From positions 1-38,212 of IMG/VR virus record IMGVR_UViG_3300047157_000131: a stretch of DNA of 38,212 nt, one strand, 5' to 3'. Below the pieces are notes generated by a model, which worked only from the letters and a program-made list of their open reading frames with translations, had not been told where the DNA came from and made no database searches. This document shows, piece after piece, positions 5,741 to 36,844 of the stretch. The DNA comes from a virus. Positions within the stretch are counted from its first letter, which is position 1; each line of letters opens with the position of its first letter. A program made the position numbers and the translations under genes.

Positions 5741-8700
5741 TTACAAGATGTCTTGATATATCGGTGTTTGTTCACTTGAACAAAGAATTACATCATATAT
5801 TTGACCTTCTGGTGATGGGTCACCATAGCTACCAGCTCTTCCAATACTAAAAACAATACCTGTTTCTGTTTTATGAAAATTGTTTGAGCTTGTTGTTGTG
5901 TATAAAGTTGAAAGAGTATCGTCTCGATATAAATATGTTCCATCTTCAAAGTTACCTGTATAATAAATTATTTGACCAAAAGTATTTAACTCCATACAAG
6001 CATCTGTTTCAGTTGTTCTTGTATTTCGTGAAATTCTAATTGTTTTAATATCTACAGGAGTTGGATCTTCTTCAGGAGGTGGCGGATTTAATGCTACATC
6101 ACAAGTATCACAATCTCTATATACAGCTAAATCTTGTATATTTACAGTTGTAGTTGTACTTGTAGTTGCTGATTCTGTCCAACATTCACCATTATAAGCT
6201 ACAGTAGGAAATGTACTTGCAAAATCTGAAGCTGATATAGAATCAGGATGACCAAAAACAAATGTGATTGAACTATCAGTACATTTTTCGTATGTGTGAA
6301 ATGATTGAAGTCCAGTAGCTACTGGCTGACTTCCATCTTCAATACAGTCTTCACAATTATTAAATTCTTCCCAGTTTAAACCAGATAATAAAAGAGCGTC
6401 TGGATTATAAGCTGCTATTTGACCTTGTGAACCGTGCAACTCATAAACAATATGCCTACACTTTGTAGTATCTGTTCCTGGTCTTAAAACATTAGGTAAA
6501 TCTGAATCTGATACGACATATAAGAGTGTATCTCCTGTACTACCACATAATCTATATGCTCCATAATATTCTTCTTCGTCTATTATAATTTCTTCTTCAA
6601 CAACAACATTACCGACACAATCAGCACAGCTTCCATATGCTTGACCACTGTTTAATATATCTGTGGACTCTAACACAAAATATGGACTTGGGAGAGTAAA
6701 ATTATCATCATATATTGTTTGTACTGTATAACATCCCTCTCCTCCTTGCTGTCCTACATCTTTAATTCTTATAACTTTATTTTGATAGTATTCAAAATTG
6801 TTTAATTGAAAATATGATGTTGTATTTTCAGAATTTTGACCAGTACATCTTTTTGCAGCAATTTTTGACACATTTGTAATACTTTGTGCTGGTGGTCCTG
6901 AACACCCTCCATTTATACAACCTTGAGCAATACCATTAGCACCTGCTATATATCTAAAATTATTATTAGTTCCTGTTGTGGAATCACTATAAGTTCCTTG
7001 AGGAGCAGGTGTGGTTGCAGTAGGATCAGTATAAAAAATAACAATCTGATTGTCATTACAAAATGATGTTGCACCAGCTCTGTTTGTGTATATGGTAGTA
7101 TCTGTTCCACTCGTACAGGCATTGATATTTGCAGAACTACCACCTGATACATACCTTATGTTTGAGAATGAAGGTCTTGTCTCCCATATTATTGGTTTAT
7201 CTGTAGATGCTGTTATATTTGACACTCCAGTTCCACTAACCTTACAGTTGTAATAAATAGCATTAGGGTCTGTTGTTGTGGTTTGTGTTTCACCAGTTCC
7301 TCCATTTATAAGAAGTCTTTGTGATGTTTGCCCAGATATATCAGAAAGGCTTCCTTGTGTAGTTCCTTTTTGCCATTGATAAGTTGGATTGCTTATGTTT
7401 GTAGGTATTGCAAGTAATGACACTCTTTGAGATGCGTAAGCTCTTCCTTGATTATTACCATCTTCAGTTGCCATCTCTATTATAACACTTGGAGTTCCAG
7501 TACCTGCTCCAGTAGTTATATCATCATCTCCAGGATTAACACCACATTCAGTAATATTTGAAACATATCCAGGAGGTTCATTGTCAATGGTACCGTAGTG
7601 ACTAATTAAATCTCCATCGACATTAGGTATAACAATTTTATACCAATTACCAGTCCCTCCAAATGGATTTGATAGATTATCATTGGTGTCTCTGTTTTCA
7701 TATAATATAGTTCCTGAAGTTAATTGACCTTCATAATAAACAGTTTTATCAGCAGGTAAATTACATACATTACTACCTCCAGGACCTGGATTTGTTCTAT
7801 AACCTATATCCTCATTAGTACCTCCTGATATAAGTATAGCTTTTATAGTATCTTCTGGGTCAAATATTGTACCACCTGTATTACCTGTTTGACTTCCACA
7901 TTGTGCATAATTTGTAATTTTTCCACCACAAACAACACCTATCCTTGCATTATAATTACTTCCTATTTTATAGTATTTACCATCACTTTTATATGGTACT
8001 GTTAATCCTTGATTGCTAAATAAGAATACTCCATCACCAAAAGAATCTTGTCCTGGCAGTAATCTATAATATGCTTTTTCACTTGCTGTATCTTCACAAG
8101 CCTGGTTTGCTGTATCTCTTCCTATTGTAGATACGTTTATTTCATTTGCAGTACCTGATGTAATATTATCATATATATCTACAGAAACCTGTGATACATT
8201 TGGACTTGTATTGCTTATTCCTGTTAAAGAAAGTGTAAATGTTTCTTTAGGTTGCTCACTAACAGCATCACTAACAGCTTCAAATTCTATTTCACCAACA
8301 TTATCTTTTATTTGAAAAGCTCCTGACAAGTTACCTCTTTCTAAATCTTCTGCAGCAATTCCACTAATAGTGAAAGGTACAGATGAATTATCAGGAATGT
8401 TTGTTGTAGATAATGTTATAGTAAAAGGACATCCTTCTGTTGTGACATTTGTATTGGAACTTAAAATATAAGTAGCGTCTCTCACAACTGTTCCAGACAA
8501 TGTTGACGATAAGTCTACGTCTGCAGAAGCAAAAGTTCCACTAAAACTTGATGTAGAAACTGAAAGAGGAGAAGCGGTATCTGTAAATCCGTCTTTTTTT
8601 GTTAAAGTAATAGAAAAACTATAACTATCACCAGTTTCCCCAGTGACTTCTTTTATTATTTCTTTAGCTTTACCTAAAGTTCCATCGCTTGTTGACTGTG

Positions 8701-12037: not shown

Positions 12038-12280
12038 TTAGTTAATAGTTATTTGATCTCTGAATGCAAATTCATCACCTTTATTAATTATAAATTTATT
12101 AATTAGGCTTTGTCTGATTGCATCTTCTAAATTCAATATTAATTGGTTTGCTTCATCGCTTCCAGGTTTAATATTTAAATCTGAAAGATTGCAAACTTCT
12201 ATTAAATGTTTAAAGGCTTTTTGGTTATGATTGCTAAAAGCATCAATAACATTTTCTATTTTATCGTTTGTATTTATCAT
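12038..12280 (-). CDS. Unrecognised small acidic protein (80 aa)
   Basis: The protein starts MINTNDKIENVIDAFSNHN and is helical and acidic, without cysteines or membrane segments. It has its own consensus Bacteroidota promoter at 12304-12333, which places the start about 15 bases after the expected transcription start. It leads a short transcript that also contains the 32-aa and 48-aa genes and ends at the terminator near 11650. Unknown function; probably an early host-takeover gene. Confidence 0.7.
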   Translation of the reverse strand: MINTNDKIENVIDAFSNHNQKAFKHLIEVCNLSDLNIKPGSDEANQLILNLEDAIRQSLINKFIINKGDEFAFRDQITIN

Positions 12281-12303
12281 AATAATTAATTTAATTGTTT
12301 ATA

Positions 12304-12333
12304 CAAATATAAGAATATTATTTTAATTAACAA
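12304..12333 (-). promoter_or_regulatory. Bacteroidota-type promoter (TTG-N19-TATATTTG)
   Basis: On the minus strand TTG is followed after 19 bases by TATATTTG, an exact fit to the TAnnTTTG -7 element. It lies 24 bases before the ATG of the 80-aa gene. Confidence 0.75.
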
Positions 12334-12472
12334 ACAATATTAATAAAATATAATTATTTTTTTTATGTTTGTATTGGCTAATAATATAAAATTGATGCTG
12401 TACAAAAATAAATTAAGAAAGACAAATATTATGATAATTTATAATTATTCTAAATAGTGAAAAAATACCTAT

Positions 12473-14017: not shown

Positions 14018-14329
14018 TTAATCTTTTATAGTTATAAATACTACTTCATCAAGGTATCTTTTCATATAGTTAATAGTAGCAATGTAATCTCCTCTAAATG
14101 TTTTTTCAAGTACATATATGCAGTCATCTAATCTTGCAACCTTAGTTAATAGTTGTGCCATATTAGTTAATTCAAAAGTTGTATGATCATTAACATATAT
14201 GGTTTTACCTAAATGTTGTATAAATTCACTTGTTAAGTCATTTATAAAATGTGTTTGATCGCTTTCTTTTGCACTACTTGTATTAATAAAAGCAATTCTT
14301 CTTCTTATTATATCTTTTGTTTTTGTCAT
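14018..14329 (-). CDS. Unrecognised protein, first gene of the early operon (103 aa)
   Basis: The start at 14329 (MTKTKDIIRRRIAFINTS) is chosen because a longer frame from 14353 would begin inside the promoter at 14351-14382; the chosen ATG lies about 15 bases after the expected transcript start. The protein is helical with a basic N-terminus and LEKTFRGDYIATINYMKRYL near the C-terminus. No family recognised. It leads the run of about nine small genes down to 12587, which suggests an early, host-directed role. Confidence 0.65.
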   Translation of the reverse strand: MTKTKDIIRRRIAFINTSSAKESDQTHFINDLTSEFIQHLGKTIYVNDHTTFELTNMAQLLTKVARLDDCIYVLEKTFRGDYIATINYMKRYLDEVVFITIKD

Positions 14330-14350
14330 AATATTTGTTTTAATGTTATA

Positions 14351-14382
14351 CAAATATAAAGCATAAATAATTTAATAAACAA
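14351..14382 (-). promoter_or_regulatory. Bacteroidota-type promoter (TTG-N21-TATATTTG)
   Basis: On the minus strand TTG, 21 bases, then TATATTTG, 22 bases before the ATG of the 103-aa gene. The same -7 octamer is used at 12304. Confidence 0.75.
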
Positions 14383-14495
14383 ATAATTAACAATAAATCT
14401 TTACAATAATATTTTTTATAATCAAAGTGTAAAATAAAATAATATATAAAAGATCATTAAAATATTAGCAGTATGAAAACAAAAAAGAAAATCAT

Positions 14496-17017: not shown

Positions 17018-17237
17018 TATCTTCTAATTCTATTTTTATTTCACTATATGTTTTTTCTTCTGCATAGAGAAGAGCTTTCTTAATTCCTGCACAGAGTTCA
17101 TACATTTCTTTTCTTTCAAACTCATACATATCTTCAATTAGCTCTTCATAAGTTACACCCATTATTAAATCCCTTAATGTTAAGTAATAACTTTTCTCTA
17201 TCTTTTTTTTATATATATCCTTTTCTAACGTACTCAT
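16995..17237 (-). CDS. Unrecognised acidic helical protein (80 aa)
   Basis: MSTLEKDIYKKKIEKSYYLT is followed by MGVTYEELIEDMYEFERKEM, giving a helical, strongly charged protein without motifs. Both ends overlap their neighbours (28 bases with the nuclease gene, 23 with the DnaA-like gene), as expected in this compact operon. Function unknown. Confidence 0.65.
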   Translation of the reverse strand: MSTLEKDIYKKKIEKSYYLTLRDLIMGVTYEELIEDMYEFERKEMYELCAGIKKALLYAEEKTYSEIKIELEDNDTKIEY

Positions 17238-17985
17238 TTACATTCTTAGTCTTATCATAAAAATAATTTCTATAATTATTACAAGCGATCTCAACTTTCT
17301 TCTTACCTCTTTCTAACGCCTCCTCACTACATTCATATATCCCAATCTCACCGCTTCCCTTATCTATAACTAAAAATGTAAAGTTTTGTACATTAAAGAG
17401 TTCCATATATATATAGGCTTGTACGTCATAATGCCATTTGTTTCTTGCTGTATATACCCAAGACCCAATATCATTTGTAGTCTTTACATCTACAATTCTA
17501 TCTGTTGTTAAATAGTCAGCTTTACCACGAAAGGGAAAATCATTTATCTCTCCTATACCAGGAAGTTCTGCTGTACCACCACGAAGTAATTCACTTGCTT
17601 CATAGTTAGACTCTAAACACTTTACAAGATATTGAAAGTATGTAAACTCTTTCTTCAGCATTATCTCCATACCTGGATTCTCTGCTTTAGCATCTTTATA
17701 CTTGTTAGTGTTTCTTGAACTTGCATCTACAAATATATATCTCTCTGGTATCTTCTCGTATTCTAATACCAAAGTATGAAATAGTCTGCCCTCTCTCAGT
17801 GCAGGAACATTACTATTGTCTTTAGCTAAATAGCTTTTATATTTAACAGGAGATTCATATAAACTTTTTATACTACTTGAAGATAAAGCTGCTTCACCAA
17901 GATAACCATAGTAAAAACTATCGTCATCCATTCTGTCTAACAACTCTTTCTTTTCCCATTCCTTACCGTCTAATAATCTAATCAT
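17209..17985 (-). CDS. PD-(D/E)XK phage exonuclease-like protein (258 aa)
   Basis: The motif order of the DUF3799-like, RecB-type exonucleases is visible: SSSSIKSLYESP near 36-46, GRLFHTLVLE at 66-75, FRGKADYL at 152-159 and IVDVKTT at 164-170, where the Asp of RGKAD, the Asp of VDVK and its Lys form the metal site; WHYDVQAYIYMELF follows, the usual QxxxY helix. Such enzymes resect double-stranded ends to give single strands for an annealing protein, here the ERF protein at 21342-21890. The N-terminus is charged and the end is Asn/Lys-rich. Confidence 0.85.
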   Translation of the reverse strand: MIRLLDGKEWEKKELLDRMDDDSFYYGYLGEAALSSSSIKSLYESPVKYKSYLAKDNSNVPALREGRLFHTLVLEYEKIPERYIFVDASSRNTNKYKDAKAENPGMEIMLKKEFTYFQYLVKCLESNYEASELLRGGTAELPGIGEINDFPFRGKADYLTTDRIVDVKTTNDIGSWVYTARNKWHYDVQAYIYMELFNVQNFTFLVIDKGSGEIGIYECSEEALERGKKKVEIACNNYRNYFYDKTKNVNEYVRKGYI

Positions 17986-21341: not shown

Positions 21342-21890
21342 TTATGCCGTTAAGGCTTTTTCTATTTGTTTAGTTAGACGATATTTCTTTTCTATATCTG
21401 TCATTTTCCCACCATCTTTTATAAACTTAGCTGCCTTAATAAAAGCTACACTATCTTTTTGTAAAAGTGGTTTTTGATCGACTACGGATGTACCGTGAGT
21501 ATTTGTTGCATCAGCATCTTTAGTATCATCAATTAATAATAAGTTACCGATAGCATACTTTTTAGCATAAGAAGATGCAGCTCCAGTTCTTTGTGGGTCT
21601 TGCATACCTTTTGCACCAAAATCAACAATTGCTTGTGCAGTCGATTCTATTTGCATAGTAGGATCTGTACAATCAATCATCTTAGCTGTAGATTCAATAT
21701 ATGGTCTTCCAGCTATTTCTTTAAGTTCGTCATTTAATTTAAATACGACTTTGTGTTTCTTAGCAAGTGGTTTGACAGCCTCAAGGATGTCTTCTGCACT
21801 TCTATAGTTATAATTACCAAAACTATTCCTTTGGTTCTTAGGAGCTTTAAGCTCCGTCTGTATTAATAAAAGTTTATTTGTAATATTCAT
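21342..21890 (-). CDS. erf: ERF family single-strand annealing protein (182 aa)
   Basis: The sequence MNITNKLLLIQTELKAPKNQ, then NSFGNYNYRSAEDILEAVKP and the ERF signature RTGAASSYAKKYAIGNLLLI, identify the ERF (essential recombination function) family. These form rings and anneal complementary single strands in phage recombination. It is paired with the PD-(D/E)XK exonuclease and RusA resolvase. The C-terminal 50 residues are Lys-rich (FIKDGGKMTDIEKKYRLTK). Its start is preceded by a promoter-like TTG-N19-TAATTTTA. Confidence 0.9.
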   Translation of the reverse strand: MNITNKLLLIQTELKAPKNQRNSFGNYNYRSAEDILEAVKPLAKKHKVVFKLNDELKEIAGRPYIESTAKMIDCTDPTMQIESTAQAIVDFGAKGMQDPQRTGAASSYAKKYAIGNLLLIDDTKDADATNTHGTSVVDQKPLLQKDSVAFIKAAKFIKDGGKMTDIEKKYRLTKQIEKALTA

Positions 21891-23469: not shown

Positions 23470-26087
23470 TTAATTTATTTTAAATGCCATATATATATAA
23501 TCATTGCCATTTCCATTTGTTTGACCTAATCCAGGTCCACTACCAATTAACTTAAACCCTGTAGATATAAATTCTACATTTGTTCCTGATTCAGTTGCTT
23601 CTGCTGCAAAATCGTTAGGTTTTATATTTTTACTACCACCACGAACACTATCTAATATAACCCAGTTATCAACTCCATCTGTTACTTTTATTAATACAAA
23701 GTCAGGTTGGAATCCTGTTGTTATGGTTTTAGTTGTCGTACCATCTCCAGTATAACTTCCAAACTTACTATATCCTGTTACATCGTGGAAACAGTACATT
23801 ATATAATCATCTCCACTTCCATTTCCTAAAGAACTTGTGCCTAAAGTCACAGTCGTTGCAGTTGGTGCAGTATCATTCCAAGCAGTTGTTGCTGTATCTT
23901 CAGCTCTTGTGTCATTTAATTCTAAATATTTAGTAAATCCTATAGAAGTATGACCAACCATCCAATTTTGAGCTGAATTAAGTCTTTTAGCTATTATAAA
24001 AGTTGGTGCAGAACTTAATCCGTGTGGAATTTTTTGAACAGAACCAGTCCCATCATATTTTACTATACTAAATCCTGCATTAGCATTTGCACTAACTAAT
24101 GAAGCAAGTGAGCCATTTGGTAATCCATCAGGAAATTCAACTGTATCATTATCTGAAGCTGATTCGTTATATAAAGCAGTAATTTGAGTTGATGATAAAC
24201 CTACGCTATACACCCTTAATTGGTCTAATCTTCCCGCATAGTGATTCCAACCTGCATAAGGTGGGTCAAATAATTTTAAATTACCTGCTGACATACCTGT
24301 AAGTGTTGTTATAGTTTCTGCTAAAGAACCATTAAGGTATGTTTTAAGGCTTGTTCCATCATAAGTTGCAGCATAATGATACCAAGTATTTGCAGAAATA
24401 GATGTTCCACTACCTCTATTTGAACCACCAGTAAATATATATATTTTACTCATTTCTGTTCCTATTGCAAAACCTGTTCCTGTTTGTAATATTACACGAA
24501 TATCGGTTCCTGATAAATCTGTTGCATAAAACCAAAAAGAAAAAGTCCAAGCAGTTGTCATTGGTGGTGTTTGAGAAAGAGACACTTCGCTGTTTGTTCC
24601 ATTACTTACTACTGCTTTATTAAATTTACCACTTGAAGTATAAGCTATATCAACTCCATTAGCACCATTATTATTACCTGCTACATCATTAACATTATCT
24701 TCAAATTTATAGACACCTGTTACAGAGCTATTAAAGAAAGCAGTCGGTTCGTTATCGTCGGCTTTCCACGCCCAAGCAACGTAGGTTGAAGCACTATCAT
24801 TAATTTCATTATCAAGTCCTAATGTAAATCCATCTGCATCAAAAGAAGTAAGTGTTGCTCCACCTGTACTTTCTGCATTTGTATTATTTGATTGTATAAA
24901 TTTTGTTGCTCCTCTTAAGGTGTCAAATAAGTTATGATTTTCAGCACTCGGTCCTCTTTCTTTTATCCAAACTAAATTTGGACTAAAATCTAAACCTGTA
25001 ATGCTTTGTGTACCACTATTACCTGTATAAGTTTTTACTGCAAAACTATCTGCAAGTGTTGGTGCTTCTGTGTCAGGGTCTGAAGCAAATGCCATATAGA
25101 TATATGTAGCTCCTGAACCATTTATATCACTATTTGAAATTTGAGGTTCAAATCCATTAGAATAAAAATATACAAATTTACTTGTGCTTCCAACAACTTC
25201 GGCATCAGCATTATTTGCTTCTAATCTATTGTTTCTTGGATTTGTTAAATTTCTTTTGTTATCAAACATTAACCAACTTGCTGCAGCATCTGTTCTTTTT
25301 ATCATTATAAATGCAGGTTCAAATCCTGTTTCTATTAAGTTACCTGCCGCACCTGTACCTGTGTATGAGCCAATCTTTGAAAAGCCATCAATTGAAGCAA
25401 AAGCATAAGCTATATAATCACTTCCACTTCCGTTTACATCACTACCTGATGTAAGTGTAAAAACTGAACTTGTTGGTGCAGTATCTTGCCAAACATTTGC
25501 AGTTCTAAATGCAGGAGTACCATTTAACTCTAAATATTTTGTCCACTCTAAAGCACCTACTACCCAATCTGAACTTCCTGATGTCTTCTTGATAAATATT
25601 ATTTCTGGTGCAACTCCTAAATTATGACCAATTGATGCATTACTTCCAGTCCCGTATATTTAATTATTGAAAATCCTGCATCTGTATTTGCTTGTACTGT
25701 ACTTGTAATATCCCCATCAGTATTGCTGCTCGTAGTTCCTCCGTTTGCTTTCCAACACCAAGCTACATATTCTCTACCATTAACATTAGGATTGCCCTTA
25801 ACATTAAAACCATTTGTTTCAATTACTGCGTGTGAGGAATTACAATCTTCAGCATTAGTCAGGTTTGTATATAGTAAACAACCTGCAGTTCTTGATGAAT
25901 CTATTGTTTTATGTTCACTACTTGCATTTCTGCCTTTTATCCAAACAAAATCAGGAGTAAAACCAACTTCAATAAATTTTGATGAGGTACCATCTCCAGT
26001 AAAAGTAACCACCTTAAAGTTTTCACTTGGAGTTAATGCACCACTTGCAGTAGCACCTGCACCAATTAATCTTTTATTTAAACCCAT
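23470..26087 (-). pseudogene. Tail fibre-like protein with LamG domain, split by a frameshift (about 872 aa)
   Basis: Two frames make one gene. The first (26087-25617, MGLNKRLIGAGATASGALTP) is broken near 25650, where one missing base makes it run out with LEVMHQLVII; the second continues from the same point in the next frame to 23470. Repeated units of about 90-150 residues carry DFVWIKGRNASSEH or LVWIKERGPSAENH and YVAWCWKA or YVAWAWKA, four copies or more, as in DUF7483-type fibre repeats. A LamG/concanavalin-like jellyroll of about 200 residues (TAWTFSFWFYATDL, NTWYHYAATYDGTSLKTYLN) is inserted, probably sugar-binding. If the break is an assembly error, it is one functional protein. Confidence 0.75.
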
Positions 26088-26571: not shown

Positions 26572-27135
26572 TTATGCTACTTTATTTATTGTTGCGAATT
26601 GTTCTGTGTTTCCATTTGTAGAAACTATACTAATTAAATTTTCTCCACTTCCATCATACGTTGAAGCATTTGTAAGTTCTTTTACACTTGTAGGTAAAGT
26701 TAAAGTGTAGTTACCACTTATAACTAAATTGATTTGCATACCTGTTGATACATTTGCAAATGTTAATGTTGTATTACTCCCTAATGTTTTAGTAAATGTT
26801 GTAGCAGTTGCCCAATCTACAGATGTACCACTTAATGCTGCTGCAGTAGTAAACTCTGCACCTAATTTAGCATAACTTACTGCGTCTGCTGCTATTTTAG
26901 CTGTAGTAATGTTTAAATCAGCAATATGAACTGTATCAACTGCTCCATCAGCTATTTTATCTGAATCTACAGCATCTGCTGCTAATTTTGCTGTAGTAAC
27001 TGCTCCATCAGCAACACCACCAGCACCATTATATAACTCTGTAAAGTTATCATTTGTCTTATCCATAGCACTTCTTAATGGGTCACCTGTCCCATCATTC
27101 GCTGAAGTACCTATATTTATTGTTTGTTTTGCCAT
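26572..27135 (-). CDS. Tail fibre / virion protein with collagen-like short repeats (187 aa)
   Basis: MAKQTINIGTSANDGTGDPL is a widespread opening of phage virion and fibre proteins. Residues 40-95 contain short repeats of the type AVTTAKLAADAV, DSDKIADGAV, DTVHIADLNI and TTAKIAADAV, a trimeric beta-helix-like pattern. The C-terminal part (SKTLGSNTTLTFANVS-like) ends in a small beta domain. It probably forms a slender trimeric fibre or whisker. It begins 12 bases after the stop of the 55-aa gene. Confidence 0.7.
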   Translation of the reverse strand: MAKQTINIGTSANDGTGDPLRSAMDKTNDNFTELYNGAGGVADGAVTTAKLAADAVDSDKIADGAVDTVHIADLNITTAKIAADAVSYAKLGAEFTTAAALSGTSVDWATATTFTKTLGSNTTLTFANVSTGMQINLVISGNYTLTLPTSVKELTNASTYDGSGENLISIVSTNGNTEQFATINKVA

Positions 27136-27146
27136 TTTATTTTATT

Positions 27147-27314
27147 TTAATATACTGTTGCGTCTGCTGTTAAAGTTGTGCTATCTGCACTAAATAATGT
27201 CGTATCTACTGTTAAATAAGAGCCATCTGCATCAAAAGGATATACTATACCCCATCCATTCGCTTCATTAACGCTCCCAAACCAACTTACACTATATACG
27301 CTTCCAAACGACAT
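27147..27314 (-). CDS. Small virion-region protein with SWFG/NGWG motif (55 aa)
   Basis: MSFGSVYSVSWFGSVNEANG, then WGIVYPFDADGS and an acidic/Thr-rich end ADSTTLTADATVY. The first 25 residues form a short unit with SWFG and NGWG that is repeated in a broken relative at 31168-31249 and in a chimeric frame at 31059-31163. It overlaps the small basic gene by 23 bases. Function unknown; probably a minor virion protein. The left edge of the large duplication falls inside this gene. Confidence 0.6.
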   Translation of the reverse strand: MSFGSVYSVSWFGSVNEANGWGIVYPFDADGSYLTVDTTLFSADSTTLTADATVY

Positions 27315-27399
27315 CTTTTATCTTTTCTATATAACTCTTTAATTTTATTTCGTTTTCTTTCTTTGGTTTATATGTTTTTTTCTTCTTTATAATACCCAT
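27292..27399 (-). CDS. Small Lys-rich protein, long allele (35 aa)
   Basis: MGIIKKKKTYKPKKENEIKL then KSYIEKIKDVVWKRI. The ATG lies inside the last codons of the connector gene. In the second copy of the duplication a one-base difference shortens the same frame to 18 residues. Overlaps at both ends support translation, but the low complexity makes it uncertain. Confidence 0.4.
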   Translation of the reverse strand: MGIIKKKKTYKPKKENEIKLKSYIEKIKDVVWKRI

Positions 27400-27884
27400 C
27401 CTGTCATATTTTGATCTCTTTCTGGATACATACCTCCATCTTGTGAGCCTATATATTCTGGATACAATTCACTATTTGAATCCATATAGTCAATAAACCT
27501 TTGTGTATAGAAGTCTGCAGTAGATTTAGCTTGATGTACCAGATTGTTTATTTCTTCTAATGATGCTGAATCACTGTTTTCTGATCTATGTTTAAATACA
27601 CCTCCATTGCTAATTTGAAAAGCTGCATATTTCATATATTCTGATTGGCTAAACCAAATAAGCATTGGCTTTAAATATGTATTTACAAGAGTTGAATAAT
27701 CTCCAGATAAAGAACTGTTAACTACATCTGATTGTAATTTATTATATAAAGCTGTACCTAATTGCGTTTGTATATAAGTATCTTGTGCTACTTCAACAAA
27801 CTGTATTAGTTTATCAGTATCTACATTTCCATCTATTATAGACTTTCTTTTTAACTCTTCTAATGTTATAAATAATGCTTTCAT
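27387..27884 (-). CDS. Head-tail connector protein, DUF6712-like, copy 1 (165 aa)
   Basis: MKALFITLEELKRKSIIDGN, then DTYIQTQLGTALYNKLQSDV and LKPMLIWFSQSEYMKYAAFQ. This all-alpha pattern, with YIQ..LG..LY, is that of gp6-like connectors of Bacteroidota phages, which bind the portal ring. The ATG overlaps the portal stop (ATGA). It is identical in protein sequence to the copy at 31323-31820. Confidence 0.75.
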   Translation of the reverse strand: MKALFITLEELKRKSIIDGNVDTDKLIQFVEVAQDTYIQTQLGTALYNKLQSDVVNSSLSGDYSTLVNTYLKPMLIWFSQSEYMKYAAFQISNGGVFKHRSENSDSASLEEINNLVHQAKSTADFYTQRFIDYMDSNSELYPEYIGSQDGGMYPERDQNMTGWVL

Positions 27885-29614
27885 TTCTTATAGTTTGGAT
27901 GATGTCCGTTATTAGGCATATTTTTAGGTGCAACTGATACCTCTGAAGGGTTTTTAGGCTCTTTTAAGCCATCTTTTATTGCTTCTGACTCACTAACAAG
28001 GTTATTATCATTAACTCTTCTCTTATACACCTTCATTTCCCAATAGTGATGACAATTTACACCTCCTTTAAACTTAAATAATGAATAATTCTGTCCTTTA
28101 TGACCTAATTCTTTATTTATACCTCTAAAAGACATCATATTTATATCTTCTTTTCTAAATACTAAATTTTGACCTGTTAACAGTTCCATTCTTTGACAAA
28201 AACGTCTGCTGTTAGCAGAATTTCTTACAGGACCATAAGAGTAGCGAACCTTATATGTTGAATTGTCTTGTGAAGACTTCTTATTAGGTTTAGCATCATC
28301 TTTTGATACTTCTGCAAGTTTAGTAAAGTCAAATTCTGCTTCTGTGTCTTCTACTTTTTCTGTATGAACAAGTTCCCAGTCACTGTCATCAATCTTTTCC
28401 CCTAAAGACTCTAATTGTGATAAGATGTCATCACCTTCTTCATCTGTAAAGTCTTCTTTTTCTTGACTTGATAGTTTTTCACCAGTCTCTTCTTCTCTTT
28501 TAATCTTTGTTTCAATATTATCAAGTTCTGTAAACTCAATTGGTTGTAGAGTAACAAAGTAAAGATTAAGGTTTATACCATTAAACGATAACAGCTCATT
28601 AAATGAGTTGATTAGTTGGGTCTGAAATGGTCTAATAACAATGTTATCCATTAAAACACTTGCAGTTCTTAATTCTTCTGCATTATTACCAAAACCAGTA
28701 TTATCTTTAATACCAAGTAATATTGGAGATACAACACCGTGACCAATCATTATCTTCTCTCTTGACTCTTTAGCTAAAAAGTCATATTGTGCGTGAGCAT
28801 CTGGTAGATGAATAGGTTCAACAGTTGATTGGTTTTCTGCATTATCATTAAATGCTAATATAAATCTACCTGCATTACTACTTCCGCTAAACTTTTCATA
28901 TATCTTTCTTTCTATAATCTCTTGTGCTTCATCACCTGGAATACCATTGTTAAAGTTTAATAGTAAAGAAGGCTGCAGTCCATTCTGTATATTATTAATA
29001 TGATAATTAGATACTTCTTCCTCTAAATTACAATACTGTAAACATCCTTGATAATCAACTGGAGAATAATAATAGAAACCTGCTCTATAAGGCTTTATAC
29101 AGTATATCTCTACGTTTTCACTTTTTTTACCAAACTTAAATGCTGGTATTCTTTTAGGCTTATCAGAAGGCTTTATTTCACTCCATTTAGGATGATAGTA
29201 ATATGCTTTTATTTTACCGTCTTTTGCTTTCTCTGCTCTTAATGTTTCAGTAGGAAAATGCTTTAACTGCATTATCTTTGTTTTCCTTTTATTATATACA
29301 ACTTGTATAGATGCTTGACCTAAAAGTTTTAAGTCTCCTGTAATTCTTCTTACATCTACATCTTTTAGTATTTGTTGCATTTGACCAAACTGAACAGAAT
29401 TATCTTCTGAATCTGTTGCGTCTAATCCTCTACCATAAATTAAATCTGTGATACCATTAATACATCTTGAGTTTGTTGGACTCCCAGTATATCTATCTAT
29501 AATGTCTCCAAAATAGTTATTATTGTCACCATATTCAACCCAATCATATCTGGTTGATTCTTTTATGCTTGGCACCTCGTACCCTGATAGGTTTATTACT
29601 TTTACTTTGCTCAT
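27881..29614 (-). CDS. Portal protein, copy 1 (577 aa)
   Basis: Residues 1-340 follow the portal family of Bacteroidota siphoviruses: YDWVEYGDNNNYFGDIIDRY, NSRCINGITDLIYGRGLD, an HFPTETLRAEKAKDGKIKAY wing part, YHINNIQNGLQPSLLLNFNN and a stem/clip region EKIMIGHGVVSPILLGIKDN. An acidic linker follows, and then an extra domain (about 455-550) with GPVRNSANSRRFCQRMELLTG and FKGGVNCHHYWEMKVYK, of the type also found attached to other head genes. The portal forms the dodecameric DNA gate. It overlaps the 121-aa gene and connector by four bases each. The protein is identical to copy 2. Confidence 0.85.
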   Translation of the reverse strand: MSKVKVINLSGYEVPSIKESTRYDWVEYGDNNNYFGDIIDRYTGSPTNSRCINGITDLIYGRGLDATDSEDNSVQFGQMQQILKDVDVRRITGDLKLLGQASIQVVYNKRKTKIMQLKHFPTETLRAEKAKDGKIKAYYYHPKWSEIKPSDKPKRIPAFKFGKKSENVEIYCIKPYRAGFYYYSPVDYQGCLQYCNLEEEVSNYHINNIQNGLQPSLLLNFNNGIPGDEAQEIIERKIYEKFSGSSNAGRFILAFNDNAENQSTVEPIHLPDAHAQYDFLAKESREKIMIGHGVVSPILLGIKDNTGFGNNAEELRTASVLMDNIVIRPFQTQLINSFNELLSFNGINLNLYFVTLQPIEFTELDNIETKIKREEETGEKLSSQEKEDFTDEEGDDILSQLESLGEKIDDSDWELVHTEKVEDTEAEFDFTKLAEVSKDDAKPNKKSSQDNSTYKVRYSYGPVRNSANSRRFCQRMELLTGQNLVFRKEDINMMSFRGINKELGHKGQNYSLFKFKGGVNCHHYWEMKVYKRRVNDNNLVSESEAIKDGLKEPKNPSEVSVAPKNMPNNGHHPNYKK

Positions 29615-29976
29615 ATTACGATATATTTTTGGCTATCTGTATCTGTCCCTGTATATTGGTCATACTTATTACTATTTAATGTATGATCTGTTGTATTATC
29701 TGTTTGAGAAGTACAATAACCTTTACCTCTATAGAGTAATGTACTTCCTTGTTTTAACTCAAAAGAATAGCTGTTTTCAGCTGTTAAAATACTAAAAGCC
29801 ACAGACATCTGCAAGTAATTACCATCTGATGAAAGACTTGAAGTAATATCTGTTATAGTTTGAGTTTTTCTTGTACCGTCTTCTATAATAACCATAGATA
29901 AGTCACTCGCAACAGTGTAAGCTCTTGGAATTATGCTAATTGTTTGAGATGAAGTTGTTGGTGATAATCTTATCAT
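29611..29976 (-). CDS. Unrecognised virion-type protein, copy 1 (121 aa)
   Basis: MIRLSPTTSSQTISIIPRAY, with beta-rich Ser/Thr sequence, AENSYSFELKQGSTLLYRGK and a Thr/Asp end. Its stop overlaps the portal start (ATGA). The pattern suggests a small Ig-like or decoration protein; no family is recognised. The same gene is present at 33547-33912 with identical protein sequence. Confidence 0.65.
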   Translation of the reverse strand: MIRLSPTTSSQTISIIPRAYTVASDLSMVIIEDGTRKTQTITDITSSLSSDGNYLQMSVAFSILTAENSYSFELKQGSTLLYRGKGYCTSQTDNTTDHTLNSNKYDQYTGTDTDSQKYIVI

Positions 29977-30008
29977 ACCTATATAACTTATAAAGCTTAA
30001 TGTTGTTC

Positions 30009-30037
30009 AAAAAAAAAGAGGACTATTAAAGTCCCCT
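30009..30037 (-). terminator. Terminator after tail-tube gene, copy 1
   Basis: Minus strand GGGGACT-TTAAT-AGTCCTC (one G-T) followed by nine T. It lies between the tail-tube gene and the 121-aa gene. Confidence 0.75.
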
Positions 30038-30052
30038 TTCTGTGTTTAAGAA

Positions 30053-30073
30053 AATCCTCTATGTTTAAGAGTT
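30053..30073. repeat. 17-bp motif after tail-tube gene, copy 1
   Basis: CCTCTATGTTTAAGAGTTAG; on the minus strand it begins just after the TAA of the tail-tube gene, as at the 54-aa gene and terminase. A weaker copy CTGTGTTTAAG lies 13 bases further on. Confidence 0.6.
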
Positions 30074-30638
30074 AGCTACCTACTGTAATAGTAGCTGCAG
30101 GAGTTCCTGTTAATCCAGCAAATTCACTGAATGGGAATAACGCATCAGTAGAATCTACAGTCATAAAGTTAGCTGGAGTTGTTTCCATACCAGTTAATGT
30201 TAATGTATATCCACTTAAGTCTCCCATTGCAGCACCAGTTACAATTGTACCACCTGACACATCTGCACCGTGTTCAAGACCAACCATCATACAATTACCG
30301 TTATAATCTTCAACAACAACGTGAGGTCTTCCATAAGCTAATAACTTTAATTCTTTGTTATCTTCTTTAGATAATTTCTTAAGAGTTAAATTTAATGTTT
30401 GCTCATAAAAAGTAGTTCCGTTTTCTCTTGAAGCGTTTACTGTTTGTTCTAATGAAGAATTACCTTTTAACTCGTATTTGTAGCAAACTACAGTACTTGA
30501 ATTAGTTAAATTGGTAATTTCGTCATTTGTTAATGTAACAGAACCTAAATCTCCGTAGTCAACGAAATAAACATTTTTTATTCCACCAACGACATCTTTA
30601 CAAGGTTCTTTTCTTCCTAATGATAAATCACAAGCCAT
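30072..30638 (-). CDS. Probable tail tube protein, copy 1 (188 aa)
   Basis: MACDLSLGRKEPCKDVVGGI then VYFVDYGDLGSVTLTNDEIT, beta-rich central part with YEQTLNLTLKKLSKEDNKEL and MMVGLEHGADVSGGTIVTGA. The last part, YTLTLTGMETTPANFM, resembles tail tube or capsid-decoration proteins of Bacteroidota phages. It follows the capsid gene and has its own terminators on both sides, as expected for an abundant product. Identical in protein sequence to copy 2. Tail tube versus head decoration cannot be settled here. Confidence 0.6.
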   Translation of the reverse strand: MACDLSLGRKEPCKDVVGGIKNVYFVDYGDLGSVTLTNDEITNLTNSSTVVCYKYELKGNSSLEQTVNASRENGTTFYEQTLNLTLKKLSKEDNKELKLLAYGRPHVVVEDYNGNCMMVGLEHGADVSGGTIVTGAAMGDLSGYTLTLTGMETTPANFMTVDSTDALFPFSEFAGLTGTPAATITVGS

Positions 30639-30656
30639 AATTTTTATTTTTTATAT

Positions 30657-30694
30657 AAAAAAAGGGTGGTAGGCTCAAGGCTTACCTACCCTTT
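30657..30694 (-). terminator. Terminator after capsid gene fragment, copy 1
   Basis: Minus strand GGGTAGGTAAGCC-TTGA-GCCTACCACCC, an imperfect long stem followed by seven T. The same structure follows the full capsid gene (34593-34630). Confidence 0.75.
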
Positions 30695-30715
30695 CTTAAG
30701 TTAAACAGTTATTTA

Positions 30716-31129
30716 TTATGATGTAGCGTATAATACTACTTCATCTCCAATTCCGTGCTGAATACCAGCAGTAAATCTCATAACAACTCTCACATTTTGA
30801 GAACCATCAAGATCAGCCATATCAATTACTTTTACTTCGTTTTGGTCAGACATTAGACCTGTTCCAAAGAATAAGTTTGATTTTTGTGCTGCTACAGCAT
30901 CGTTATCAGATAATCCTGGAGCTAATGCAATTTGAATACCATCAAACTGAAGACCAGCACCATTGTTATACCACTGTGTACCTTGATTGTTTGTACCTGC
31001 TGCTCCTAATCCTGAAGCTCCAAATCCACCTAATGCTCTAATGTAGTTTCTATACATATTAGAAGGTAAGTAGATAGTCATATCTTCTGAACCATATACC
31101 CCATCCATTCGCTTCATTAACGCTCCCAA
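30716..31129 (-). pseudogene. Capsid gene fragment, C-terminal part only (copy 1 of duplication)
   Basis: From about 31096 down, the sequence matches residues 185-311 of the full capsid protein (YGSEDMTIYLPSNMYRNYI onward), with one visible amino-acid change (GLMSDQ for GLLSDQ). Upstream of the junction at TATAC (31095-31099) it runs into a fragment of the small SWFG gene. A TTG at 31129 would open a 137-codon frame, but no real start or N-terminal capsid domain remains. It is the cut-off edge of the duplication and probably not made. Confidence 0.85.
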
Positions 31130-31163
31130 ACCAACTTACACTATATACTGAACCAAATCCCAT
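31059..31163 (-). CDS. Chimeric small frame across the duplication junction (34 aa)
   Basis: MGFGSVYSVSWFGSVNEANG, WGI, then unrelated WFRRYDYLLTF read from capsid DNA in another frame. The first 23 residues equal the 55-aa gene at 27147-27314 except for residue 2. The 3' end has been lost at the junction. Probably a by-product of the duplication. Confidence 0.45.
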   Translation of the reverse strand: MGFGSVYSVSWFGSVNEANGWGIWFRRYDYLLTF

Positions 31164-31167
31164 TTTC

Positions 31168-31249
31168 TTATACTGAATAAATTATTCCCCAATTATTAGA
31201 TTCACTATCATTTCCCCACCAACTTTCATCATATATTTCCGAATGACAT
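31168..31249 (-). pseudogene. Broken small SWWG/NNWG protein gene (about 27 aa)
   Basis: An ATG at 31249 gives MSFGNI and then TGA. One frame over, DESWWGNDSESNNWGIIYSV follows to a stop at 31168; it parallels the 55-aa protein (SWFG...NGWGIVY). Adding one AT pair in the ATATAT run would join them into a 27-residue protein. Either a real frameshift in an AT repeat or an indel error. Confidence 0.5.
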
Positions 31250-31278
31250 TTTTTATCTTTTCTATATAACTCTTTAAT

Positions 31279-31335
31279 TTAATTTCGTTTTCTTTCTTTA
31301 GGTTTATATGTTTTTTTCTTCTTTATAATACCCAT
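31279..31335 (-). CDS. Small Lys-rich protein, short allele (18 aa)
   Basis: MGIIKKKKTYKPKERKRN, the counterpart of the 35-residue frame at 27292-27399. A one-base difference in the A/T run changes the frame and stops it early. Uncertain as a gene. Confidence 0.3.
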   Translation of the reverse strand: MGIIKKKKTYKPKERKRN

Positions 31336-31820
31336 CCTGTCATATTTTGATCTCTTTCTGGATACATACCTCCATCTTGTGAGCCTATATATTCTGGATA
31401 CAATTCACTATTTGAATCCATATAGTCAATAAACCTTTGTGTATAGAAGTCTGCAGTAGATTTAGCTTGATGTACCAGATTGTTTATTTCTTCTAATGAT
31501 GCTGAATCACTGTTTTCTGATCTATGTTTAAATACACCTCCATTGCTAATTTGAAAAGCTGCATATTTCATATATTCTGATTGGCTAAACCAAATAAGCA
31601 TTGGCTTTAAATATGTATTTACAAGAGTTGAATAATCTCCAGATAAAGAACTGTTAACTACATCTGATTGTAATTTATTATATAAAGCTGTACCTAATTG
31701 CGTTTGTATATAAGTATCTTGTGCTACTTCAACAAACTGTATTAGTTTATCAGTATCTACATTTCCATCTATTATAGACTTTCTTTTTAATTCTTCTAAT
31801 GTTATAAATAATGCTTTCAT
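31323..31820 (-). CDS. Head-tail connector protein, DUF6712-like, copy 2 (165 aa)
   Basis: Protein sequence identical to the copy at 27387-27884, with a single silent base difference noted near the start (31791). The motifs are the same: YIQTQLGTALYNKL and KPMLIWFSQSEYMKYAAF. The stop-start overlap with the portal is preserved. In this copy the operon reads on from the intact capsid gene, so this is the copy most likely to be the native arrangement. Confidence 0.75.
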   Translation of the reverse strand: MKALFITLEELKRKSIIDGNVDTDKLIQFVEVAQDTYIQTQLGTALYNKLQSDVVNSSLSGDYSTLVNTYLKPMLIWFSQSEYMKYAAFQISNGGVFKHRSENSDSASLEEINNLVHQAKSTADFYTQRFIDYMDSNSELYPEYIGSQDGGMYPERDQNMTGWVL

Positions 31821-33550
31821 TTCTTATAATTTGGATGATGTCCGTTATTAGGCATATTTTTAGGTGCAACTGATACCTCTGAAGGGTTTTTAGGCTCTTT
31901 TAAGCCATCTTTTATTGCTTCTGACTCACTAACAAGGTTATTATCATTAACTCTTCTCTTATACACCTTCATTTCCCAATAGTGATGACAATTTACACCT
32001 CCTTTAAACTTAAATAATGAATAATTCTGTCCTTTATGACCTAATTCTTTATTTATACCTCTAAAAGACATCATATTTATATCTTCTTTTCTAAATACTA
32101 AATTTTGACCTGTTAACAGTTCCATTCTTTGACAAAAACGTCTGCTGTTAGCAGAATTTCTTACAGGACCATAAGAGTAGCGAACCTTATATGTTGAATT
32201 GTCTTGTGAAGACTTCTTATTAGGTTTAGCATCATCTTTTGATACTTCTGCAAGTTTAGTAAAGTCAAATTCTGCTTCTGTGTCTTCTACTTTTTCTGTA
32301 TGAACAAGTTCCCAGTCACTGTCATCAATCTTTTCCCCTAAAGACTCTAATTGTGATAAGATGTCATCACCTTCTTCATCTGTAAAGTCTTCTTTTTCTT
32401 GACTTGACAACTTTTCACCAGTCTCTTCTTCTCTTTTAATCTTTGTTTCAATATTATCAAGTTCTGTAAACTCAATTGGTTGTAGAGTAACAAAGTAAAG
32501 ATTAAGGTTTATACCATTAAACGATAACAGCTCATTAAATGAGTTGATTAGTTGGGTCTGAAATGGTCTAATAACAATGTTATCCATTAAAACACTTGCA
32601 GTTCTTAATTCTTCTGCATTATTACCAAAACCAGTATTATCTTTAATACCAAGTAATATTGGAGATACAACACCGTGACCAATCATTATCTTCTCTCTTG
32701 ATTCTTTAGCTAAAAAGTCATATTGTGCGTGAGCATCTGGTAGATGAATAGGTTCAACAGTTGATTGGTTTTCTGCATTATCATTAAAGGCTAATATAAA
32801 TCTACCTGCATTACTACTTCCGCTAAACTTTTCATATATCTTTCTTTCTATAATCTCTTGTGCTTCATCACCTGGAATACCATTGTTAAAGTTTAACAGT
32901 AAAGAAGGCTGCAGTCCATTCTGTATATTATTAATATGATAATTAGATACTTCTTCCTCTAAATTACAATACTGTAAACATCCTTGATAATCAACTGGAG
33001 AATAATAATAGAAACCTGCTCTATAAGGCTTTATACAGTATATCTCTACGTTTTCACTTTTTTTACCAAACTTAAATGCTGGTATTCTTTTAGGCTTATC
33101 AGAAGGCTTTATTTCACTCCATTTAGGATGATAGTAATATGCTTTTATTTTACCGTCTTTTGCTTTCTCTGCTCTTAATGTTTCAGTAGGAAAATGCTTT
33201 AACTGCATTATCTTTGTTTTCCTTTTATTATATACAACTTGTATAGATGCTTGACCTAAAAGTTTTAAGTCTCCTGTAATTCTTCTTACATCTACATCTT
33301 TTAGTATTTGTTGCATTTGACCAAACTGAACAGAATTATCTTCTGAATCTGTTGCGTCTAATCCTCTACCATAAATTAAATCTGTGATACCATTAATACA
33401 TCTTGAGTTTGTTGGACTCCCAGTGTATCTATCTATAATGTCTCCAAAATAGTTATTATTGTCACCATATTCAACCCAATCATATCTGGTTGATTCTTTT
33501 ATGCTTGGCACCTCGTACCCTGATAGGTTTATTACTTTTACTTTGCTCAT
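31817..33550 (-). CDS. Portal protein, copy 2 (577 aa)
   Basis: Identical at protein level to the portal at 27881-29614; the DNA differs at several third-codon positions, for example near 32405, 32700, 32789, 32897 and 33424. The same three parts are seen: the portal body, an acidic linker (EEGDDILSQLESLGEKIDDS) and the C-terminal domain with RRFCQRM and GGVNCHHYW. Two complete portal genes in one siphovirus genome would be unusual. Silent-only change over 577 codons means either strong selection or two sampled strains. Confidence 0.85.
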   Translation of the reverse strand: MSKVKVINLSGYEVPSIKESTRYDWVEYGDNNNYFGDIIDRYTGSPTNSRCINGITDLIYGRGLDATDSEDNSVQFGQMQQILKDVDVRRITGDLKLLGQASIQVVYNKRKTKIMQLKHFPTETLRAEKAKDGKIKAYYYHPKWSEIKPSDKPKRIPAFKFGKKSENVEIYCIKPYRAGFYYYSPVDYQGCLQYCNLEEEVSNYHINNIQNGLQPSLLLNFNNGIPGDEAQEIIERKIYEKFSGSSNAGRFILAFNDNAENQSTVEPIHLPDAHAQYDFLAKESREKIMIGHGVVSPILLGIKDNTGFGNNAEELRTASVLMDNIVIRPFQTQLINSFNELLSFNGINLNLYFVTLQPIEFTELDNIETKIKREEETGEKLSSQEKEDFTDEEGDDILSQLESLGEKIDDSDWELVHTEKVEDTEAEFDFTKLAEVSKDDAKPNKKSSQDNSTYKVRYSYGPVRNSANSRRFCQRMELLTGQNLVFRKEDINMMSFRGINKELGHKGQNYSLFKFKGGVNCHHYWEMKVYKRRVNDNNLVSESEAIKDGLKEPKNPSEVSVAPKNMPNNGHHPNYKK

Positions 33551-33912
33551 ATTACGATATATTTTTGGCTATCTGTATCTGTCCCTGTATATTGGTCATA
33601 CTTATTACTATTTAATGTATGATCTGTTGTATTATCTGTTTGAGAAGTACAATAACCTTTACCTCTATAGAGTAATGTACTTCCTTGTTTTAACTCAAAA
33701 GAATAGCTGTTTTCAGCTGTTAAAATACTAAAAGCCACAGACATCTGCAAGTAATTACCATCTGATGAAAGACTTGAAGTAATATCTGTTATAGTTTGAG
33801 TTTTTCTTGTACCGTCTTCTATAATAACCATAGATAAGTCACTCGCAACAGTGTAAGCTCTTGGAATTATGCTAATTGTTTGAGATGAAGTTGTTGGTGA
33901 TAATCTTATCAT
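33547..33912 (-). CDS. Unrecognised virion-type protein, copy 2 (121 aa)
   Basis: Identical to the protein at 29611-29976. The DNA of the two copies looks identical by eye in this gene. It is followed by the portal with an ATGA overlap and preceded by the terminator at 33945-33973. A small beta-rich protein; possible decoration or tail completion role is inference. Confidence 0.65.
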   Translation of the reverse strand: MIRLSPTTSSQTISIIPRAYTVASDLSMVIIEDGTRKTQTITDITSSLSSDGNYLQMSVAFSILTAENSYSFELKQGSTLLYRGKGYCTSQTDNTTDHTLNSNKYDQYTGTDTDSQKYIVI

Positions 33913-33944
33913 ACCTATATAACTTATAAAGCTTAATGTTGTTC

Positions 33945-33973
33945 AAAAAAAAAGAGGACTATTAAAGTCCCCT
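33945..33973 (-). terminator. Terminator after tail-tube gene, copy 2
   Basis: Same hairpin and T run as 30009-30037, displaced by 3936 bases. Confidence 0.75.
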
Positions 33974-33988
33974 TTCTGTGTTTAAGAA

Positions 33989-34009
33989 AATCCTCTATGT
34001 TTAAGAGTT
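33989..34009. repeat. 17-bp motif after tail-tube gene, copy 2
   Basis: Duplicate of the motif at 30053-30073, again directly after the stop codon of the tail-tube gene. Confidence 0.6.
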
Positions 34010-34574
34010 AGCTACCTACTGTAATAGTAGCTGCAGGAGTTCCTGTTAATCCAGCAAATTCACTGAATGGGAATAACGCATCAGTAGAATCTACAGTCAT
34101 AAAGTTAGCTGGAGTTGTTTCCATACCAGTTAATGTTAATGTATATCCACTTAAGTCTCCCATTGCAGCACCAGTTACAATTGTACCGCCTGACACATCT
34201 GCACCGTGTTCAAGACCAACCATCATACAATTACCGTTATAATCTTCAACAACAACGTGAGGTCTTCCATAAGCTAATAACTTTAATTCTTTGTTATCTT
34301 CTTTAGATAATTTCTTAAGAGTTAAATTTAATGTTTGCTCATAAAAAGTAGTTCCGTTTTCTCTTGAAGCGTTTACTGTTTGTTCTAATGAAGAATTACC
34401 TTTTAACTCGTATTTGTAGCAAACTACAGTACTTGAATTAGTTAAATTGGTAATTTCGTCATTTGTTAATGTAACAGAACCTAAATCTCCGTAGTCAACG
34501 AAATAAACATTTTTTATTCCACCAACGACATCTTTACAAGGTTCTTTTCTTCCTAATGATAAATCACAAGCCAT
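34008..34574 (-). CDS. Probable tail tube protein, copy 2 (188 aa)
   Basis: Identical protein to 30072-30638, with at least one silent base difference (near 34188). It is separated by about 80 bases and a terminator from the complete capsid gene. No membrane or signal segment; two cysteines near the N-terminus and two in the middle. Tail tube is the best guess from beta-rich pattern and place; head decoration is the alternative. Confidence 0.6.
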   Translation of the reverse strand: MACDLSLGRKEPCKDVVGGIKNVYFVDYGDLGSVTLTNDEITNLTNSSTVVCYKYELKGNSSLEQTVNASRENGTTFYEQTLNLTLKKLSKEDNKELKLLAYGRPHVVVEDYNGNCMMVGLEHGADVSGGTIVTGAAMGDLSGYTLTLTGMETTPANFMTVDSTDALFPFSEFAGLTGTPAATITVGS

Positions 34575-34592
34575 AATTTTTATTTTTTATAT

Positions 34593-34630
34593 AAAAAAAG
34601 GGTGGTAGGCTCAAGGCTTACCTACCCTTT
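34593..34630 (-). terminator. Terminator after major capsid gene
   Basis: Same long imperfect stem and T7 run as at 30657-30694. It lies 20 bases after the capsid stop codon and would isolate the abundant capsid message. Confidence 0.75.
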
Positions 34631-34651
34631 CTTAAGTTAAACAGTTATTTA

Positions 34652-35587
34652 TTATGATGTAGCGTATAATACTACTTCATCTCCAATTCCGTGCTGAATA
34701 CCAGCAGTAAATCTCATAACAACTCTCACATTTTGAGAACCATCAAGATCAGCCATATCAATTACTTTAACTTCGTTTTGGTCAGATAATAGACCTGTTC
34801 CAAAGAATAAGTTTGATTTTTGTGCTGCTACAGCATCGTTATCAGATAATCCTGGAGCTAATGCAATTTGAATACCATCAAACTGAAGACCAGCACCATT
34901 GTTATACCACTGTGTACCTTGATTGTTTGTACCTGCTGCTCCTAATCCTGAAGCTCCAAATCCACCTAATGCTCTAATGTAGTTTCTATACATATTAGAA
35001 GGTAAGTAGATAGTCATATCTTCTGAACCATATACTGTAGATGGAATTGCGTCAGCAATTTTACCAAGCTCTGTAATAATGTTAGCTGCAGTTGAAGCTG
35101 TACCTGTTACGTCATTAACGTCACCATCAGCACCTAATGTAGTAATGAAACCATCGAACTGACCAGCAGTTGCGTTAGTACCTGTCCAGATGTTAGTTTC
35201 CATTCTTTGAGCTACTTTATCTGCTACGTGAGCAATTAAAAAGTCAGAGAAGTTAGATGGTAAGTTGTCAAATGCAGAATATCCCATTTGTACTGCTTCC
35301 CAGTCGTCTCTAAAATTTTCCTTACATAACTGAAGATTCACTTGAAACTCCTCTGGTTGTAAGATTCTTTCAGTAAGAGTAAGTGTTGATGTTGGGTCAA
35401 AATCACAAACTGCATTTTTTACGATGCCATCTGTTGCCACTTTCTTCATTACTTGTTTATATTTAACATTAGGTACTACTGTAATATTACCTTCTGCTAA
35501 AGTTTTACCTGATAATAAAGCTGCAGAAATATATTTTCCAGCGAATTCACCAGCGTAACTTGAACTTATATTAGTTGTTGTTGCCAT
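34652..35587 (-). CDS. Major capsid protein (311 aa)
   Basis: MATTTNISSSYAGEFAGKYI is the typical opening of the major capsid proteins of flavobacterial siphoviruses, followed by AALLSGKTLAEGNITVVPNV and DFDPTSTLTLTERILQPEEF. FDNLPSNFSDFLIAHVADKV and NTNIWTG-like sequence make the middle domain; YLPSNMYRNYIRALGGFGAS and VVMRFTAGIQHGIGDEVVLY close the protein. No N-terminal delta domain is present, in keeping with a separate scaffold gene just upstream. The fold is presumably HK97-like. The right edge of the duplication cuts this gene at 35035. Confidence 0.85.
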   Translation of the reverse strand: MATTTNISSSYAGEFAGKYISAALLSGKTLAEGNITVVPNVKYKQVMKKVATDGIVKNAVCDFDPTSTLTLTERILQPEEFQVNLQLCKENFRDDWEAVQMGYSAFDNLPSNFSDFLIAHVADKVAQRMETNIWTGTNATAGQFDGFITTLGADGDVNDVTGTASTAANIITELGKIADAIPSTVYGSEDMTIYLPSNMYRNYIRALGGFGASGLGAAGTNNQGTQWYNNGAGLQFDGIQIALAPGLSDNDAVAAQKSNLFFGTGLLSDQNEVKVIDMADLDGSQNVRVVMRFTAGIQHGIGDEVVLYATS

Positions 35588-35605
35588 TTTAAATTAATTT
35601 AATTA

Positions 35606-36152: not shown

Positions 36153-36629
36153 TTATGCTTTCTGTTGTACTACAAACCATTCTGTTCCATTACACCAAAC
36201 CATAATCCCCTCATAAGCTTTGTTGATTCTGTAAGCACTTGAACTACCATCTAAATTTTGTCCTGATACAGGAGTTAAATCTGCGTGTGTTGAAGTAGTA
36301 AATGTAGAATCAGATATAATTCTAATTACTCTATTTAAATTTTTAGTTGCTGTTGCATCAGGTAAAGTGAGTTCTATAGTTCCATTTGAACCAGACCAAG
36401 AAAGTACAATAAGCTCTGCTTCATCATAAGTAGAAGCATCTAAATCAATAGTTCCTCCTGCTACGCTTACTGTAACTGATGTAGGTTCTAAATGATTTAC
36501 AATATAACGTTGAAGTTCTAAAGCAGTTATTTTTTTTGTTTCAGATGAATCTACTATTGGTAATACTTCTGTCCCATCTATATTAGATGCAGTTACTGCG
36601 TTTAATTCGGATATTTTTTTATCTGCCAT
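36153..36629 (-). CDS. Virion protein, fibre- or head-fibre-like (158 aa)
   Basis: MADKKISELNAVTASNIDGT and EVLPIVDSSETKKITALELQ form an N-terminal unit seen at the start of many phage fibre and decoration proteins (ISEL, then D..P.VD....KK). The second half is beta-rich and ends YEGIMVWCNGTEWFVVQQKA, a typical closing strand motif of such domains. It begins with a TAATG overlap with the 77-aa gene. A head fibre or spike is likely because it is embedded in the head module. Confidence 0.65.
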   Translation of the reverse strand: MADKKISELNAVTASNIDGTEVLPIVDSSETKKITALELQRYIVNHLEPTSVTVSVAGGTIDLDASTYDEAELIVLSWSGSNGTIELTLPDATATKNLNRVIRIISDSTFTTSTHADLTPVSGQNLDGSSSAYRINKAYEGIMVWCNGTEWFVVQQKA

Positions 36630-36844
36630 TATAATTTTATTTTACTGTTGTCTTCTTGTAATATGAAATCTATATTTTCTTGTAATAAATAATTAGTTGT
36701 CCTATGTATGCTTCCTATTCCTTGTGCTTCTAATGTTCCATCACAGCATTTTATTGAATATGTTCTACCATCAGGACACAAACAAGCTCTTGATGAACTT
36801 CTTGGAGAAGAATAACTTAATGTTGCATTTTTTCTTCTTTTCAT
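36629..36844 (-). CDS. Small Cys/Arg-rich protein after protease (71 aa)
   Basis: The ATG at 36844 overlaps the protease stop (ATGA) and is preferred to one six codons upstream. MKRRKNATLSYSSPRSSSRA is followed by CLCPDGRTYSIKCCDGTLEA with a CxC and CC arrangement, and a helical end QENIDFILQEDNSKIKL. The Cys set may bind zinc or form disulphides. This sequence type recurs next to head genes of Bacteroidota phages; its role is unknown. Confidence 0.65.
   Translation of the reverse strand: MKRRKNATLSYSSPRSSSRACLCPDGRTYSIKCCDGTLEAQGIGSIHRTTNYLLQENIDFILQEDNSKIKL

Follow-up and report, generated by a model that had tools for sequence, protein, structure and literature searches.

A head segment present twice in a marine phage contig, probably as an artefact of a strain-mixed sample

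A marine phage contig (virus record G000) of 38,212 bases, analysed over its full length and referred to here as the window, carries a head segment of ~3.9 kb twice, as a direct repeat, head to tail. Taken at face value, the contig describes a phage that has two portals and whose genome is inflated, which raises the question whether such a phage exists or whether two versions of a single segment were strung together. Judged from the window and its relatives, the duplication is most likely an artefact: in a strain-mixed sample, the assembly would have passed through the head block twice, each time with different alleles, and the real phage probably has a genome of about 34.5 kb with a single portal. 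If the duplication were true, a natural heterozygous head-gene duplication would have been caught in a wild phage.

The repeated segment and its genes

Almost every long gene of the window lies on the minus strand. The repeated segment consists of the portal gene, the genes for proteins of 165, 121 and 188 aa, and the last part of the gene for a 311-aa protein. A terminase is also encoded in the window, as are an exonuclease (17209-17985) and an Erf-like annealing protein (21342-21890); scans of the window for tRNAs and against Rfam gave no matches. The features are listed below, with L numbers denoting loci of relatives.

25640..25666, minus strand: tail-fibre gene frameshift, at the end of the 99.8% match to L006
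27147..27314, minus strand: 55-aa small gene, intact (one-gene haplotype), spanning copy 1 into the left flank
27246..31099: repeated head segment, copy 1, with mostly L006-like alleles and a few private or L005-like ones
27387..27884, minus strand: 165-aa gene, copy 1 (phrog_35048, unknown function)
27881..29614, minus strand: portal gene, copy 1, its protein identical to that of copy 2
29611..29976, minus strand: 121-aa gene, copy 1
30072..30638, minus strand: 188-aa gene, copy 1 (protein possibly tail-tube-like)
30716..31129, minus strand: capsid gene of copy 1, 5'-truncated, open through the junction from TTG
31095..31099: junction, shared 5-base TATAC, found with the junction probes in no other viral contig
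31095..35035: repeated head segment, copy 2
31095..31330, minus strand: left end of copy 2, where the small-gene module is a mosaic that combines two natural haplotypes and carries private indels
31323..31820, minus strand: 165-aa gene, copy 2
31817..33550, minus strand: portal gene, copy 2
33547..33912, minus strand: 121-aa gene, copy 2
34008..34574, minus strand: 188-aa gene, copy 2
34652..35587, minus strand: capsid gene, full-length, 311 aa, predicted HK97-type fold

The portal label of an earlier note on this DNA is borne out by phrog_33693 (E 4.5e-98). The capsid label also agrees with the predicted structure of the 311-aa protein, which resembles HK97-type capsids at a mean model confidence of only 51.5 (best Foldseek E 5.5e-8; VIA Z 13.8 and rmsd 5.0 over 232 residues to the capsid of phage phiRSA1). 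A sequence search of the PDB with the capsid profile returned two weak matches, one of them a capsid protein (E 0.72). The name "tail tube" for the 188-aa protein was too firm: its best structural match to a phage tail (Foldseek E 1.6e-3, pLDDT 65) suggests at most a tail-tube-like protein.

Self-BLAST aligned 31218-35035 with 27281-31099 at 99.37% identity (3820 columns, 21 mismatches, 2 gaps), and 31095-31148 with 27246-27299 at 100% over 54 bases. The copies had been described as nearly identical at an offset of 3936, with about a dozen differences, almost all silent. This description fits the body, where 13 of 3690 aligned columns differ and 12 of the differences are silent, the other being M/L; it does not fit the left ~200 bases (27246-27392 / 31095-31328). 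At the left end, 87 extra bases in copy 2 reduce the offset to 3849. The portal gene accounts for eight of the silent differences and the 165-aa and 188-aa genes for one each, the 121-aa gene has none, and the shared capsid part contains three differing sites, one of them M/L. The longest stretch identical between the copies measures 762 bases. A separate repeat pair in the window, 12254-12347 / 14302-14397 (98 columns, 79.6% identity), lies in an AT-rich, gene-poor stretch of 22-27% GC.

At the junction the interior of the capsid gene is fused to the interior of the 55-aa small gene and the edges share TATAC, as had been read from the sequence at the outset. By chance, an overlap of at least five bases arose in 0.99% of 200,000 simulated random joins within the window (P 0.01). 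An ordinary k-mer join by an assembler would need a longer overlap than this; five shared bases suggest a microhomology event, possibly a biological one.

Copy number and alleles among relatives

The relatives comprised the best 80 loci with the portal, plus loci carrying two other proteins of the window and the small gene. None of the 179 portal-bearing loci has two portals, and a direct repeat of more than 300 bases was found in none of the 317 loci over the DNA covered (loci of one contig can overlap, and split contigs were checked across their halves separately). Among the 59 distinct whole records searched, one portal was present in 58 and none in the remaining one. The relatives L004 (99.7% identity to parts of the window) and L006 (99.8%) both show the unduplicated arrangement. 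Probes across the junction, 38 and 19 bases long, gave no match in viral_contigs, a collection from which records near the window were possibly left out. A portal search of genome_contigs yielded 164 stretches that fit the pattern, none of which was confirmed.

The differences between the copies proved to be largely those that segregate among the relatives. For ten of the 13 differing sites in the body, both alleles are present among eight aligned relatives; at the other three, the allele of copy 1 is private with respect to these eight. Only 140 of the 3690 columns are polymorphic among the aligned relatives, which gives the coincidence a probability of roughly 1.6e-12, or roughly 7.5e-8 if only a third of the sites can change. 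Since ten of the 13 differences are alleles of other contigs, the copies represent two population versions, both drawn from one polymorphic population. The same alleles occur separately, in single-copy relatives, as do both haplotypes of the left end.

Twelve sites in the body distinguish L004 from L006. Copy 1 carries the L006 allele at 11 of them and copy 2 at eight, the others being L004 alleles, and both copies are therefore mosaics. The plain assignment of copy 2 to strain L004 and of copy 1 to strain L006 is thereby weakened, as the body of copy 2 has four differences from L006 and eight from L004.

The greater divergence of the left ends is explained by copy 2, whose small-gene module combines two natural haplotypes. 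This module lies after the 165-aa gene and has two natural forms, which change between close lineages: among 83 distinct relative contexts, the 55-aa gene stands alone in 59 and is preceded by a 27-aa paralogue, an intact mini-gene, in 24. Copy 1 lacks the mini-gene at its left end, as do L006, L008 and L094. The left end of copy 2 starts in this one-gene form and continues as the two-gene form, switching from haplotype II to I and back to II inside about 250 bases. Just before the junction, copy 2 has an allele that is common to copy 1 and L006 and absent from the two-gene relatives L004, L084, L114, L005 and L007. Two private indels, an insertion of one base at 31300 and a deletion of two at about 31236, both disrupt small genes of copy 2; these forms were seen in none of the 317 loci, and the undeleted form in 23.

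Near-identical alignments of the window to L155, L200, L084, L006 and L004 (about 24 kb) contain a single indel, at 31300-31302. The tail-fibre gene (23470-26087, minus strand), which encodes 873 aa and is whole in L084, is split near 25650 in the window; this frameshift marks the start of a hypervariable cassette, and both an error and phase variation are possible there. With private indels next to the junction and also at a second switch point, the local consensus may be poor.

Beyond both edges of the repeat, L006 and L004 remain near-identical to the window (to 36153 and about 26942). A join at a fork where strains diverge is thus unsupported, as the strains diverge only beyond the edges of the duplication. 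At 36154-36718, with a 158-aa gene, L006 differs strongly from the window and L004 is near-identical, which we read as a local strain swap amid otherwise conserved head genes. In two of the ten long relatives' contigs, the ends overlap at less than full identity, namely at 80% in G050 (L224, L225) and at 93% in G030 (L238, L239), which suggests that the assembly passed from one strain to another within the contig.

Origin of the duplication

An old tandem duplication within one lineage, the copies of which have since diverged by mutation, would account for the predominance of silent differences, as under purifying selection. No relative shares such a duplication, the left ends represent distinct natural haplotypes, and by either of the estimates given above the body differences are alleles that segregate in other contigs; as the copy differences coincide with population alleles, this origin is rejected as very improbable. 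A recent event is harder to dismiss. Two co-infecting strains may have recombined out of register at TATAC, which we hold to be unlikely, and the earlier note was correct in that a real tandem duplication would leave an identical junction. The virion would then derive from a genome with two portal genes, two each of the 188-aa, 121-aa and 165-aa genes, and one whole and one truncated capsid gene, an outcome that seems improbable to a similar degree. It is likewise doubtful that two nearly complete, slightly different portal-to-connector modules, brought together from two strains, stand in tandem in a genome of about 38.4 kb that is still packaged. What speaks for such an event is the microhomology itself, rare among random joins, together with repeat edges that are unrelated to strain divergence and genes that are intact in both copies, apart from the truncated capsid gene and the small genes of copy 2, with changes that are almost only silent. 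The Erf-like annealing protein and the exonuclease of the phage itself could help. Size poses no obstacle either: L007 spans both ends of the window and places the missing piece at about 0.1-0.3 kb, giving a genome of about 38.3-38.5 kb with the repeat and about 34.4-34.6 kb without it, and the three relatives with exact end repeats measure 37.46, 36.01 and 35.97 kb. Since the genome with the repeat would be only slightly larger than the largest complete relative, packaging does not forbid the duplication, and a packaging limit was discarded as an argument against it, as size does not decide. Against a real duplication stand the absence of the junction from the viral collection, the single portal in every relative that has one, and the private indels at switch points with the poor consensus that they suggest. 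In addition, recombination should quickly remove a direct repeat of 3.9 kb from a phage that encodes its own annealing system.

An artefact of a strain-mixed sample is favoured because the arrangement is unique, because a long direct repeat would be unstable alongside an annealing protein, and because the only indels lie at haplotype switches. The contig would stem from a mix of close strains of a single marine phage, itself a relative of the genus Inhavirus. We infer that a false connection at the 5-base microhomology led from within the capsid gene back to where the head segment ends, and that the assembly then ran through the 3.9 kb twice, taking different population alleles on each pass. 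The connection itself may have come from a chimeric molecule, formed in amplification or library preparation, or from a faulty join by the assembler; one of these is needed, since the edges are not divergence points, the copies are mosaics and the overlap is only five bases. The earlier proposal that an assembler joined two allelic versions thus stands with respect to the alleles and the two left-end haplotypes, not as a simple joining where strains diverge. Several observations count against an artefact: the junction is crossed with no N gap, the edges of the duplication are not points of strain divergence, the overlap looks like the product of microhomology, and MDA chimeras are mostly inverted. 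The 762-base identical run would be hard to phase with short read pairs, so that the separation of the two copies may imply long reads or a real molecule, and since natural recombination in the population also yields mosaics, mosaic copies alone are no proof of an artefact. Copies that differ by population alleles, combined with a clustering of indels where strains switch, may nevertheless serve as a warning sign for chimeric virus contigs that requires no reads.

Likeness to known artefacts and phages

Each ingredient of this reading appears in work on false allelic duplications, metagenome curation and amplification chimeras (PMC9516828, PMC7111523, PMC1855051, PMC4595205). False heterotype duplication, described for diploid vertebrate assemblies and marked there by a gap and half read depth, also places two allelic versions side by side in one scaffold, where they are read as gene gain (PMC9516828). 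In the window there is no gap (no N in 38,212 bases, a gap being not strictly required in that description), the join has a 5-base overlap and the copies are mosaics; as the gap is lacking, the case was likened to this class and not filed as a member of it. In MDA chimeras the overlap mostly measures 5-8 bases (PMC4595205); of those in PMC1855051, 85% were inverted, and only 11 of 475 were direct with less than 10 kb between the joined parts. The present junction would resemble them in its short microhomology (five bases, versus a peak of six), and is unlike most of them in being direct. Artificial repeats in metagenome phage contigs, as reported in PMC7111523, are identical, sometimes hundreds of bases long, and have been noted in deposited phage sequences. 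They share with the window a falsely repeated sequence inside a metagenome assembly, whereas here the repeat is 3.9 kb long and its copies differ by alleles.

The only relatives found in the phages collection are the Nonlabens phages P12024S and P12024L (genus Inhavirus), to which the portal shows 33.8% identity over 99%. Megablast of 27000-35600 against that collection gave no match, and the phage was therefore not placed in the genus Inhavirus, only considered related to it. In P12024S the homologues of the protease, the capsid, the 188-aa protein, the portal and the 165-aa protein occur in conserved order, and Erf and exonuclease are annotated; unlike in the window, the head block is single. 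Finally, P12024S (L321) contains two distant homologues of the 188-aa protein, at 2149-2661 and 5968-6459 (36% and 28%), which lie before and after the portal.
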